Source: Kocuria rosea
GTDB lineage: Bacteria > Actinomycetota > Actinomycetes > Actinomycetales > Micrococcaceae
Reading direction: 5' to 3'
DNA: 64,000 nucleotides
Assembly (NCBI RefSeq): GCF_023715525.1
Contig: NZ_JAMBOG010000010.1
Coordinates: 62,001-126,000, forward strand
A program made the position numbers and the translations under genes. Positions 8,032 to 36,048 of this stretch are shown here, in pieces. A model generated the notes under the pieces. The model saw only the letters and a program-made list of their open reading frames with translations. It made no database searches and was not told where the DNA came from. Numbering within the stretch: position 1 is the stretch's first letter; each line of letters opens with the position of its first letter.

Positions 8032-9063
8032 CTAGTCCGCCGCGGCGGCCACGGCGGCACGCTCCGCCGGGACCTGCCGCGGGTCGCCCGCACCGGCCTC
8101 CTGCTCCCGCACGGCCGGCTCCCCGCGGCGCAGCAGCGCGTACAGCGGGGCGGCGACGAACAGGGTGGCCACGGTGCCCGCGACGATGCCCACGAACAGG
8201 GACAGGGACAGGTCCTTGAGGGTGCCCGCGCCGAGGACCAGCCACCCGATGAACAGGATGGAGCCCACCGGCAGGATGCCCACGACCGACGTGTTGATCG
8301 AGCGGACCAGGGTCTGGTTGACGGCGAGGTTCACCTGGTCGGAGAAGCCGCGCCCGGCGCGCTCGGGCGGGGCCGTGCCGTCGAGCAGGCCCTCGGTGTT
8401 CTCCCGGACCTTGTCGAAGACCACCACGGAGTCGTAGAGGGAGTAGCTGAGCACCGTGAGGAAGCCGATCACCGCCGAGGGCGTCACCTCGAAGCCCACG
8501 AGCGAGTAGACGCCCGCGGTGATGGCCACGGTGGCGAGCATCCCGGCGATCGCGGAGACCGACATCTTCCAGGTGCGGAAGTACAGGGCCATCAGCGCCG
8601 TGGCCAGGACCACGAAGACCACCAGGCCCCACAGGGCCTGGCGGGTGACCCCGGCGCCCCAGGTGGGGCCCACGAAGGTCGACGTCACCTGGTCCTCGCC
8701 CACCCCGTAGGCGGTGACGAGGGCGTCCTTGACCGCCAGCGTCTCGTCGTCGTCGAGCTGCTCCGTCTGCACGCGCACCGTCTCGGCGGCGATGTTGGTG
8801 ACCTCGACCTCCGCGGCGTCGGAGGACTCCGCGACGGCGCGCTCGCCCACGGACACGTCCGGGTCCGCGACCGAGGAGACCGTGAACTCGGACCCGCCCG
8901 TGAAGTCGATGCCGAGGTTGAACCCGCCCTTGACCACGGGCACCAGCAGGGAGAGGACCACGGCGGCGGCGGCCACCGCCAGCCACAGCCGCGCCCTCGC
9001 CACGAAGGGGTAGGACTTCCGCCCGCTGTGCAGGGCGTTGCCGAAATCTGCGAACCGGGACAT
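8032..9063 (-). CDS. secF: Protein translocase subunit SecF
   Basis: Inner-membrane partner of SecD that uses the proton gradient to help SecYEG-driven export. 343 residues. TM1 lies near residues 27-47, followed by the family signature GIDFTGGSEFTV. A periplasmic loop runs to about residue 125, and then the TM2-TM6 block contains GVYSLVGFEVTPSAVIGFLT and the DSVVVFDK motif. The tail is Ala/Arg-rich. Its ATG shares one base with the secD stop (TGATG), and GAGGAG lies 10 bases upstream, so translation is probably coupled. Confidence 0.97.
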   Translation of the reverse strand: MSRFADFGNALHSGRKSYPFVARARLWLAVAAAAVVLSLLVPVVKGGFNLGIDFTGGSEFTVSSVADPDVSVGERAVAESSDAAEVEVTNIAAETVRVQTEQLDDDETLAVKDALVTAYGVGEDQVTSTFVGPTWGAGVTRQALWGLVVFVVLATALMALYFRTWKMSVSAIAGMLATVAITAGVYSLVGFEVTPSAVIGFLTVLSYSLYDSVVVFDKVRENTEGLLDGTAPPERAGRGFSDQVNLAVNQTLVRSINTSVVGILPVGSILFIGWLVLGAGTLKDLSLSLFVGIVAGTVATLFVAAPLYALLRRGEPAVREQEAGAGDPRQVPAERAAVAAAAD

Positions 9064-10916
9064 CAGGCGTTCTCCTCGGAGGTGCGGGCGGGGGCGGACG
9101 ACGCCGAGGCGCCGGCCGGTGCGCCGGCCGGCGCGTCACCGGCGGGCTCCTCCGGGGCGGCGGCCCGGGCGGCGAGCCGGCGCCGCTCGGCGATGGTCAG
9201 GCCGTCGTGCTCCCCGGGCTGCCGCAGCCGCCCGGCCCCCCGGTAGAGGGGCACGGCGTCGAGGGCCTCGGGGTTGAGCCCCGAGTGCTTCCCGCCGCCG
9301 CCGAAGTAGCGGGTGCGGGCGAGCAGCACCATGACCGGGTGGGTGAACAGGAAGACCACGAGCAGGTCGGCGAGCGCGGTCAGGCCCAGGGTGAAGGCGA
9401 AGCCGCGGACGTTGCCGACCGCCACGAAGTAGAGCACCACGGCGGCCAGCAGGTTCACGGCCTTGGACGCGAGCACCGTCTGGCGGGCGCGCCGCCAGCC
9501 GTGGTCGACCGCGGCGGGAATGGAGCGGCCGCCGCGGATCTCGTCGCGGATGCGCTCGAAGTAGACGATGAAGGAGTCGGCGGTCTGGCCGATGGCCACG
9601 ATCAGGCCCGCGACGCCCGCCAGGGACAGCCGGTAGTTCGCGGACCAGCCCAGCAGCGCGATCGCCAGCCAGGTGAGCACGCCGGCCACCACGAGGGAGC
9701 TGATGGTCACGAGGCCGAGCAGCCGGTACTGGAACAGCGAGTAGACGCACACCAGGGCCAGGCCGATGAGCCCGGCGACGATGCCCATCCGCAGCTGGTC
9801 GGCGCCCAGCGTCGCGGAGATCTGCTGCTCGGACTGGATCCCGAAGCTCACCGGCAGGGCACCGTACTTGAGCTGCTCCGAGAGGAACTTGGCCTGCTCC
9901 TCGGTGAAGCTGCCCGTGATCTCGGCCTTGCCGTCGGAGATCACGGCGTTCATGGACGGCGCGGAGACCACCTGGCCGTCGAGCAGGATCGCGAACTGGC
10001 TGCGCGGGTCCCCGGGCGTGGTCTGCCCGATGCCGTAGAGCCGCTCGGACAGCACCCGGAACCGGTCGGTGGCCTCGGGGCCGAACTGGAGGTTCACGGC
10101 GAACTGGTTCAGGGACACGCCCGTGGAGTTCTGCGCGGTCCCGTAGGAGGCGTCCTGGATGCCGGTGCCCTGGATCTCGACGGGGCCGAGCAGGTACTTG
10201 GTGCCGGTGTCGGGCTCGCACGCGACGACCGGCTCGTCGGCCGGCTGCGCCTCCCGCTCCTCGGGGGGCACCGTGGCGGTGCAGTCGGTGGCCTCGAACT
10301 GCCGGTAGAGCTCGGGGGTGATCCAGTTGGGGTCGGAGGAGTCGGCGGGCTCGCCCGTGGGCTCGGGCAGCTCGTCCTTCGGCGTGCGCTGGTCCTCGGG
10401 CACGGCCCCGGCGGCGGCGGTCGTGAGCACGGGGCGGAAGTTCATCTCCGCCGACGACTGGATCAGCTCCCGGGTCTCGGCGGAGGGCACGCCCGGCATG
10501 GACACGACGATGTTGTCCCCGGACTGGGTGGAGATCTCCGCCTCGGAGACCCCGGACCCGTCGACGCGCTGGCGGATGATCTCGACCGCCTGGCTGAGCT
10601 GCTCGGGGGTGATCTCCCGGCCCTCGTCGTCGCCCCGCAGCGACGGGGAGAGGATCATCTGGGTGCCGCCCTCGAGGTCGAGGGCGAGCTTCGGGCCCCA
10701 GCCGGTGCGGTCCGTGCCGGCGCCCCAGGCGAGCAGCCCGGCCAGCAGGGCCAGGAGCACGAGGAGCCCGAGCAGGGAGCGGCGGGCGCCGGAGAGGGCG
10801 GCCCGCACCCCCGGGCCCGCGGGGGCGCTGGAGCCGGCCCGCGCGCCCGCGCGCCGGGAGCCGTCGGGGGCGTCGGGTCCGGCGCCGCCGGACGTGTTCC
10901 GTGTGGTCAGTGCCAT
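9063..10916 (-). CDS. secD: Protein translocase subunit SecD
   Basis: 617 residues; forms the SecDF membrane complex that drives late steps of protein secretion. TM1 (LLGLLVLLALLAGLLAW) follows a basic, disordered N-terminus. The signature LDLEGGTQMIL comes next, then a long extracytoplasmic P1 region with an inserted acidic/Pro-rich segment, then the five-helix block. ATG at 10916 is chosen because AAGGA lies six bases upstream; an in-frame TTG at 10934 lies above that ribosome site. Runs yajC-secD-secF. Confidence 0.97.
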   Translation of the reverse strand: MALTTRNTSGGAGPDAPDGSRRAGARAGSSAPAGPGVRAALSGARRSLLGLLVLLALLAGLLAWGAGTDRTGWGPKLALDLEGGTQMILSPSLRGDDEGREITPEQLSQAVEIIRQRVDGSGVSEAEISTQSGDNIVVSMPGVPSAETRELIQSSAEMNFRPVLTTAAAGAVPEDQRTPKDELPEPTGEPADSSDPNWITPELYRQFEATDCTATVPPEEREAQPADEPVVACEPDTGTKYLLGPVEIQGTGIQDASYGTAQNSTGVSLNQFAVNLQFGPEATDRFRVLSERLYGIGQTTPGDPRSQFAILLDGQVVSAPSMNAVISDGKAEITGSFTEEQAKFLSEQLKYGALPVSFGIQSEQQISATLGADQLRMGIVAGLIGLALVCVYSLFQYRLLGLVTISSLVVAGVLTWLAIALLGWSANYRLSLAGVAGLIVAIGQTADSFIVYFERIRDEIRGGRSIPAAVDHGWRRARQTVLASKAVNLLAAVVLYFVAVGNVRGFAFTLGLTALADLLVVFLFTHPVMVLLARTRYFGGGGKHSGLNPEALDAVPLYRGAGRLRQPGEHDGLTIAERRRLAARAAAPEEPAGDAPAGAPAGASASSAPARTSEENA

Positions 10917-33794: not shown

Positions 33795-33824
33795 CCCTCC
33801 GGCGCTGTTGCGCTCCGCGGAGGG
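33795..33824 (+). terminator. Composite hairpin after the CFA synthase gene
   Basis: Outer stem CCCTCCG/CGGAGGG encloses the inner stem GCGC-TGTT-GCGC. It overlaps the putative -35 of the following riboswitch promoter. Confidence 0.5.
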
Positions 33825-33856
33825 ATTCCACTACGGTGTGGTGACAGTCACCATAC
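33808..33856 (+). promoter_or_regulatory. Promoter with palindromic operator ahead of the glycine riboswitch
   Basis: TTGCGC (33808) and TACGGT (33832) are 18 bases apart, which places the start near 33844. A palindrome, TGGTGAC-A-GTCACCA, centred on 33846 and extending with one mismatch over 33836-33856, covers the start point. The TGGT/ACCA ends recall FadR-type GntR operators, but the regulator is unknown. Confidence 0.55.
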
Positions 33857-33871
33857 TGCAGCCGTTGACGT

Positions 33872-34062
33872 GCGGCGGGAGAGTCCCGTCCGGCACGACC
33901 GGTCGGGCGCCGTAGGAGCAATTCCTCCCCGGGAAACTCTCAGGCCCCCGCACCGCCGCACCGAGGCGAATCTGGAAAGTGGCACGGTCGTTCCCGTGCT
34001 CGCCGAAGGAGCAAGCTCCGCCCGGTCCGGGCGGGACGGAAACTCTCAGGCTGTGCAACAGA
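33872..34062 (+). promoter_or_regulatory. Tandem glycine riboswitch
   Basis: Two glycine aptamers lie in series. The first has GGGAGAGTCCCG, CGCCGTAGGAGCAA and GGGAAACTCTCAGGC. The second has CTGGAAAGTGG, CGCCGAAGGAGCAA and CGGAAACTCTCAGGC. These are the standard conserved cores of the family. Binding of glycine normally turns on glycine cleavage genes. Here the first reading frame downstream is a gcv deletion scar (34120), followed by sdaA. Confidence 0.93.
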
Positions 34063-34119
34063 TCGGGGAGGAACCAAGAAACCGCGTGGCGCGGCCGCGC
34101 AGACTTCTGGAGTTCCTCG

Positions 34120-34422
34120 ATGACGATCACCACGGCTCGCCCCACCACCGGCCACCCCAGCGGCGAGCACACCTTCGCCGACCGCCGCCTCCCGCAGACC
34201 CTCGCCGTGGCGCGGGGCCGGGCCGAGGCCCTGGGCTTCGAGGTGGAGGTCGCCGACCTCTCCGCGGGGGTGCCCGAGGGCGAGATCTCCGGGATCGTGC
34301 TCCAGCAGCCCGGCGACGACGGCGCGGTCGTGGACCACACCGCCACCGTCGCGGTCTCCCCGGAGGACCCGCTCCTGTCCGCCCAGGACTACGCCGCCGC
34401 CCCCGGAGGTGAGCTCGCATGA
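34120..34422 (+). pseudogene. gcvP/gcvH in-frame deletion scar
   Basis: A 100-codon frame with a good ribosome site (GGAG at spacing seven). Residues 1-21 look like a GcvP N-terminus ending FADR, where intact proteins continue HIG. It then jumps to an internal GcvP stretch: [46 protein letters not shown]. The last part, [16 protein letters not shown], resembles a GcvH C-terminus. No lipoyl site, PLP lysine or intact domain remains. The stop overlaps an ATG preceded by GGAGG that opens only a six-codon frame. A glycine-cleavage function is not possible from this piece. Confidence 0.82.
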
Positions 34423-34511
34423 GCCCCCGCGCCGGCTGATCCCGCGCGACGCCCGCACCCCGCCACACCTCCTGCCCCCGTCCGGGGGCACCACCTGCTT
34501 TGGAGCACACC

Positions 34512-35942
34512 ATGGCCATCAGCGTCTTCGATCTGTTCACCGTGGGCATCGGCCCCTCGAGCTCCCACACCGTTGGGCCCATGCGCGCTGCCGGGCGCTT
34601 CGCCCGGACCCTGGTCGAGGACCGTCTCCTCGAGGCCACCGCGGACCTGCGCGTGGACGTCTACGGATCGCTGGCCGCCACCGGCCGCGGCCACGGCACG
34701 TTCACCGCGATCCTGCTGGGCCTGGAGGGCTACGACCCCGAGCAGGTCCTTCCCGCCCAGGTCGAGGACCGGCTCGCCGACATCGCCGCCACCGGCACGC
34801 TGCGGCTGTGCGCCGCGCTCGGGCACCGCAAGGACATCCGCTACACCGTCGAGGACATGGTGCAGCACCCGCTGACCGTGCTGGCCCGGCACACCAACGG
34901 CATGCGGTTCCAGGCCCTGGACGCCGGCGGGGGCGTGCTGGCCGAGCAGACCTGGTTCTCCGTGGGCGGGGGCTTCATCGTCCGCGACGGCGAGGAGGAC
35001 ACCGCCGCCGCCGAGCTGGCCGCCGCCGGCACCCAGGTGCCCCACCCCTTCCGCACCGCCCGGCAGCTGCTGGACCACTGCCGGGCCACCGGGGGCAGCA
35101 TCAGCGAGGTGATGCTCGCCAACGAGCGGACCTGGCGGACCGAGGAGGAGGTCCGGGCCGGGCTGCTGCACCTGTGGGAGGTGATGGAGCAGTGCAAGGA
35201 CTCCGCGATCACCCGCACCGGGGTGCTGCCCGGGGGCCTGGACGTCGCCCGCCGGGCCCCGGGGTGGCACCGGCGCCTGCGCATCGAGGACCCGGACCGG
35301 GACCCGGGCTTCTGGCAGGAGTGGGTGAACCTGGTGGCCCTGGCCGTGAACGAGGAGAACGCCTCCGGGGGCCGGGTGGTCACCGCCCCCACCAACGGAG
35401 CGGCCGGCATCATCCCCGCCGTGCTGTTCTACGCCACCCACTACTCCCCCGCCGTGCGCGCCGCCGCCCGACAGGCCCCGGAGACCCTCGAGGCGACGCG
35501 GCAGGAGATCGTCGTGCGGTTCCTGCTCACCGCCGGGGCGGTCGGGGTGCTGTACAAGGAGCAGGCCTCGATCTCCGGGGCCGAGGTCGGCTGCCAGGGC
35601 GAGGTCGGCTCGGCCTCCTCGATGGCGGCGGGCGGTCTGGCCGAGGTCCTGGGCGGCACCCCCGGCCAGGTGGAGAACGCCGCCGAGATCGCCATGGAGC
35701 ACAACCTGGGCCTGACCTGCGACCCGATCGGCGGGCTCGTGCAGGTGCCGTGCATCGAGCGCAACGCGATCGCCGCGGCCAAGGCCATCAACGCCGCGAA
35801 GATGGGCCTGTGGGGTGACGGCACCCACCGGGTGAGCCTCGACCAGGTCATCGTGACCATGCGCGAGACCGGCCGGGACATGAGCCACAAGTACAAGGAG
35901 ACCGCCCTGGGCGGGCTCGCCGTCAACGTCGTCGAATGCTGA
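34512..35942 (+). CDS. sdaA: L-serine ammonia-lyase (single-chain, [4Fe-4S])
   Basis: 476 residues; converts L-serine to pyruvate and ammonia in the cytoplasm. The beta-type domain has [12 protein letters not shown] at the N-terminus. The alpha domain has [15 protein letters not shown] and the iron-sulfur cysteines in [28 protein letters not shown]. The ATG at 34512 has GGAG at spacing six; an in-frame TTG at 34500 overlaps that site. It follows the glycine riboswitch and the gcv scar with no intervening terminator seen, so its expression may respond to glycine. Confidence 0.95.
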
Positions 35943-36048
35943 CCCCGTCCGGGACCGCCGAGGACGGCCGCCGCAACCGTTGCGCCCACGGCATGTCCAG
36001 CACCTGAAGGAAGCCGGTGCTCCCATAGGTGTCAGGAAGCACACGGAG

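Follow-up and report, generated by a model that had tools for sequence, protein, structure and literature searches.

The window, the whole stretch of DNA analysed here, comprises 64,000 nucleotides from Kocuria rosea and contains a tandem glycine riboswitch, a 100-codon open reading frame (ORF) and an intact sdaA gene encoding L-serine dehydratase (L-serine ammonia-lyase) on the forward strand (Table 1). The ORF runs from ATG to TGA and is preceded by a GGAG ribosome-binding site at 34109-34112, in agreement with the initial annotation, which had described a frame of this length with a normal ribosome site; sdaA has a ribosome site of its own. An Rfam search of the whole window did not return the second aptamer, which appears when searched alone. 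Both tandem aptamers exceed the RF00504 gathering score, marking the region by sequence as a candidate for glycine control, and, with scores similar to those of K. dechangensis (64.3 and 52.4 bits), both are intact by this measure. The DNA of the sdaA region (34441-35946) is 90% identical to K. dechangensis, and the window flanks beyond 33808 and 35946 show no alignment to the loci of other genomes. The riboswitch-to-sdaA unit (33808-35946 in the window) lies in a different genomic context in every Kocuria genome compared, neither the cyclopropane-synthase-like gene on its 5' side nor the flavin-dependent oxidoreductase gene on its 3' side being shared among them.

Table 1. Features of the riboswitch-to-sdaA region, in window coordinates.
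Feature	Position	Strand	Evidence and remarks
Glycine riboswitch aptamer 1	33866..33965	+	RF00504, 61.6 bits (gathering 32)
Glycine riboswitch aptamer 2 (tandem)	33962..34071	+	RF00504, 50.7 bits in a search excluding aptamer 1
Putative expression platform	34061..34128	+	Minimum-energy folds; conserved columns in 8 genomes; predicted function
Scar ORF	34120..34422	+	100 codons; fused gcvP-gcvP-gcvH remnants
gcvP codons 1-22	34120..34186	+	DNA alignment, L041 3663-3729
Internal gcvP, ~codons 185-236	34190..34343	+	91% to L041 4216-4378, alignment reaching 34352; GDC-P positions 163-219
gcvH residues 102-126 and own stop codon	34344..34422	+	80% to L041 8094-8184 (alignment 34344-34434); 84% to L042
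glyA remnant, 6-codon mini-ORF (MSPRAG, stop)	34419..34439	+	Start fused in frame to last codons and stop of glyA
sdaA, L-serine dehydratase, intact	34512..35942	+	TIGR00720, 641 bits (cut-off 345)

In K. dechangensis (genome G005, locus L041, NZ_BMEQ01000002.1) and a second congener (G006, locus L042), the operon riboswitch-gcvP-gcvT-gcvH-glyA-sdaA is intact, and these two loci served as references for DNA alignment. Among the 80 related loci examined in the genome collection, gcvP-gcvT-gcvH-glyA-sdaA lies on one strand in 29 and the same order without glyA in 20, the remainder including loci cut by contig or fetch ends. The order riboswitch, gcvP, gcvT, gcvH, sdaA expected in the initial annotation is borne out, apart from its omission of glyA, which those 29 loci carry and which was part of the ancestral operon.

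Aligned to L041, and with an identical three-block pattern against L042, the window follows the order of the operon: leader and gcvP codons 1-22 (33808-34186, 86% identity to L041), internal gcvP and the end of gcvH, followed by a short glyA end, intergenic DNA and sdaA. In the relatives' operons, the three blocks of the ORF are separated by ~0.5 kb and ~3.7 kb. The C-terminal end of the ORF consists of the final 25 GcvH residues, closed by the native gcvH stop codon, and the ATGA overlap of this stop with the glyA start is preserved at the glyA remnant. In L041, glyA starts at 8169 and ends (...GAG, stop) at 9503, and window positions 34429-34458 correspond to L041 9493-9522. The starts of gcvP and sdaA are 5978 bp apart in K. 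dechangensis; in the window, which lacks ~5.6 kb of the operon through no fewer than three internal deletions (~483 bp, 3.73 kb and 1.3 kb) and a small intergenic one, they are 392 bp apart. The length of the first deletion, 483 bp, is divisible by three; the second brought gcvP and gcvH together in frame inside a short stretch of similarity near ACCGTCG; and the third removed nearly the whole of glyA, leaving ATGAGC in frame with its last codons. gcvT is wholly absent from the locus.

Profile and protein searches gave concordant assignments. Residues 22-77 of the ORF match TIGR00461 (gcvP; E 1.8e-6, 26 bits over 56 residues, missing the full-length cut-off of 859 bits), and residues 23-77 match PF02347 (GDC-P; E 2.5e-5, 23.8 bits, just below the 26-bit cut-off). 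In a search of 26 congener genomes, the part from residue ~13 to residue 84 aligns with frames of full-length GcvP at identities of at most 78% (G006) and 71% (G005), and residues 74-100 match gcvH, ~3.7-3.8 kb further along, in G005 and G006. A search of the genome with the GcvH profile (PF01597) returned the copy on contig C4 only and none within the window, where the ORF holds only residues 102-126. The pieces are collinear with GcvP and GcvH by DNA alignment, but the proteins proper span ~967 and 126 residues, and the 100 residues kept hence constitute no functional member of either family.

With its pieces collinear with the intact operon of close relatives and the same riboswitch and sdaA at its flanks, the region is, on alignment evidence, almost certainly what several deletions have left of the gcv operon. 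This upholds the earlier proposal of an in-frame deletion scar of the glycine-cleavage genes: the GcvP N-terminus, internal GcvP segment and GcvH C-terminus were all found by DNA alignment, and the significant GcvP match falls where one had been expected, within residues 22-80. The accompanying statement that all but this scar is gone was right about the scar and overlooked a fourth piece, the glyA remnant. The genome is a draft of 73 contigs, and an assembly error might have joined pieces of a truly intact operon; this is scarcely credible, given that the pieces are 7-20% divergent from relatives, that no second copy of the missing parts turned up elsewhere in the genome, and that three clean joins lie in one place and relatives have eroded independently.

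At a GC content of 76-79%, an open frame this long has a chance probability of ~47% (45-56%), and the open frame was therefore dropped as a sign of coding; the reality of the scar is argued from collinear homology, not from frame length. All four DNA-supported joins, three in the window and one in the congener G015, are in frame, which has a chance of 1 in 81 if the joins are independent, although the tally is small and was drawn up post hoc. At positions where the window departs from a base shared by G005 and G006, the scar has 14 nonsynonymous and 5 synonymous changes. The same segments show 5 nonsynonymous and 14 synonymous changes between G005 and G006 (Fisher p 0.009 versus the scar), and a codon alignment of sdaA in the same lineage gives 24 and 36 (p 0.017 versus the scar). 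Random change is expected to be 72% nonsynonymous, and the scar stands at 14/19 (74%). The residues of the scar look free of protein-level constraint, and a small protein maintained from it is unlikely. The ribosome site, the in-frame joins and the natural stop would suit a chimeric ORF retained for a new function, but this is very improbable: the nonsynonymous fraction equals the neutral expectation, the fused form has no homologue in the 26 congeners or among the genome-collection matches, and parallel loci hold unrelated remnants. No conserved small-protein family of the scar's length was found, the matches in other genomes falling within GcvP or GcvH. The earlier suggestion that the scar may still be translated as a small protein can stand only for the act of translation.

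A complete second set of glycine-cleavage genes was found elsewhere in the genome: a second gcvP and gcvT lie on contig C67 behind another tandem glycine riboswitch, and gcvH is unlinked, on C4. The genome also has two glyA genes, one on C15 and one on C11, and C15 carries a second serine dehydratase gene as well. Judged by gene content, the cell retains glycine cleavage, and the redundancy provided by this second set (C67 and C4) and the two glyA genes explains why loss of the operon was tolerated. Two gcvP loci are also present in G003, G005, G006, G014 and G021. In several Kocuria genomes, ~5 kb separates the second gcvP-gcvT unit from rpoB (in the window's genome, G000:C67, gcvP is at 90472 and rpoB at 96647). 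A separate cluster (L136, G000:C15:28000-46000) contains two GCV_T-domain genes, that copy of glyA and the second serine dehydratase gene, and may serve sarcosine or betaine degradation.

Genes have been lost from the same operon in four other genomes, two of Kocuria (G015 and G023) and two of another genus (G102 and G083, from a 100-genome family sample). All four retain the riboswitch, an ORF from a gcvP-type start and sdaA, and their remnants differ from one another and from that of the window. In G023 (L134, G023:C1:2724264-2726268) and G015 (L138, G015:C9:787-2724), gcvPTH-glyA has been lost, sdaA lies within ~0.5 kb of the riboswitch, and ~14 and ~18 codons of the gcvP start are kept, respectively. 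The start is followed by an unrecognised stretch in G023 and by a gcvT piece joined in frame in G015, where the frame is lost later; in both genomes the leader frame continues into sdaA. In G102 (L150, G102:C63:24500-27000) the riboswitch is followed by a 45-codon ORF and sdaA, and in its congener G083 (L151, G083:C1:1973500-1977500) by a 46-codon ORF and gcvH-glyA-sdaA; judging from position, leader and first codons, both ORFs probably start where gcvP once did. A candidate glyA tail in the G102 leader was rejected, with a DNA alignment score of 29 against a shuffle maximum of 35.

On an rpoB tree, G023 groups with the intact G003, G014 and G021 (100/100), and on an sdaA tree the window's genome groups with the intact K. 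dechangensis (97/95), a pairing that is not repeated on a tree of the second gcvP. Because the rpoB and sdaA trees place each with intact relatives, the losses in the window and in G023 appear to be independent, unless the locus was transferred. G015 groups with G023 on the second-gcvP tree (100/99), and these two may therefore share a single loss.

By folding and alignment, the gcvP start codon is predicted to sit within a conserved hairpin adjoining aptamer 2. In the inner hairpin of the minimum-energy fold, GAGGAAC (34068-34074) pairs with GUUCCUC (34112-34118), overlapping the GGAG site, and in the outer pairing GAUC on the 3' side of aptamer 2 (34061-34064) pairs with GAUC in codons 2-3 (34125-34128). 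Among the relatives folded over the full hairpin, G006 (with shifted pairs), G014, G003, G021 and G023 also formed the inner hairpin, and the fold of G015 differed. The outer pairing is not universal, with GAGC in G014, G003 and G021 and GACC in G023 and G015. The hairpin would fit a translational switch on the gcvP start, a kind of switch that is reportedly common among Actinomycetota (PMC12452182); a literature search on glycine riboswitches in Arthrobacter found nothing specific.

The best explanation, and on balance a probable one, is that the operon remnant is a translated leader through which glycine controls sdaA. A redundant riboswitch-gcvP-gcvT-gcvH-glyA-sdaA operon would have lost most of its genes by internal deletions; glycine binding would open the hairpin that covers the remnant ORF's ribosome-binding site and start codon; translating the short leader would let transcription or re-initiation reach sdaA; and the glycine ON switch would thereby drive serine dehydratase almost alone. 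The amino-acid sequence of the leader would be free to drift, its start and translation being kept. Whether the remnant was kept as a translated leader is, taken by itself, finely balanced: the start site kept in five eroded loci, the intact aptamers, the predicted hairpin and the in-frame joins argue for it, whereas the ease of open frames at this GC content, the G023 and G015 frames that enter sdaA, the variable outer pairing and the differing G015 fold count against it. Coupling of sdaA to the leader is perhaps unneeded, since sdaA has its own ribosome site.

The locus could instead be inert debris, in which deletions removed redundant genes, the riboswitch and sdaA were simply inherited and the remnant ORF does nothing of its own. 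The neutral-looking substitutions, the frequency of chance open frames and a second gcv set that makes the window copy dispensable make this a serious possibility, albeit a doubtful one, as a gcvP-type start and the hairpin region are kept in 5/5 eroded loci examined, the aptamer scores match those of intact relatives and the DNA-supported joins are all in frame. Extending the translated-leader explanation to the family, it is tentatively proposed that repeated erosion of this operon in Micrococcaceae left a riboswitch, a gene-start leader and the last gene, that selection kept the start site as part of the switch, and that the beginning of a dead gene became a translated leader relaying the glycine signal to serine dehydratase.

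According to a 2013 survey (PMC3766115), glycine riboswitches seldom control serine genes, and the locus would represent one way in which such genes can become the main target. It would also be an unusually readable example of how the stump of a lost first gene can turn into a riboswitch-controlled leader ORF. Having occurred in two or more separate lineages and left different remnants but the same kept parts, the losses would form a natural deletion series showing which parts of the leader are needed. The Streptomyces tandem glycine riboswitch operon, gcvT-gcvH-glyA-sdhA (PMC12452182), resembles the Kocuria locus in placing tandem RF00504 aptamers before glycine-cleavage, glyA and L-serine dehydratase genes; unlike that operon, the window holds fragments of gcvP, gcvH and glyA, gcvT is gone and sdaA is the sole survivor. 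In Mycobacterium tuberculosis ppe2, experiments showed that the downstream gene needs translation of a riboswitch-controlled upstream ORF, by termination-reinitiation (PMC11260477), and such a mechanism therefore exists in Actinomycetota. The two leaders are alike in their succession of riboswitch, short ORF and regulated gene, but ppe2 is an experimentally established B12-sensing OFF switch, whereas the Kocuria locus would be a glycine switch acting through the putative translation of a leader built from a gene remnant.
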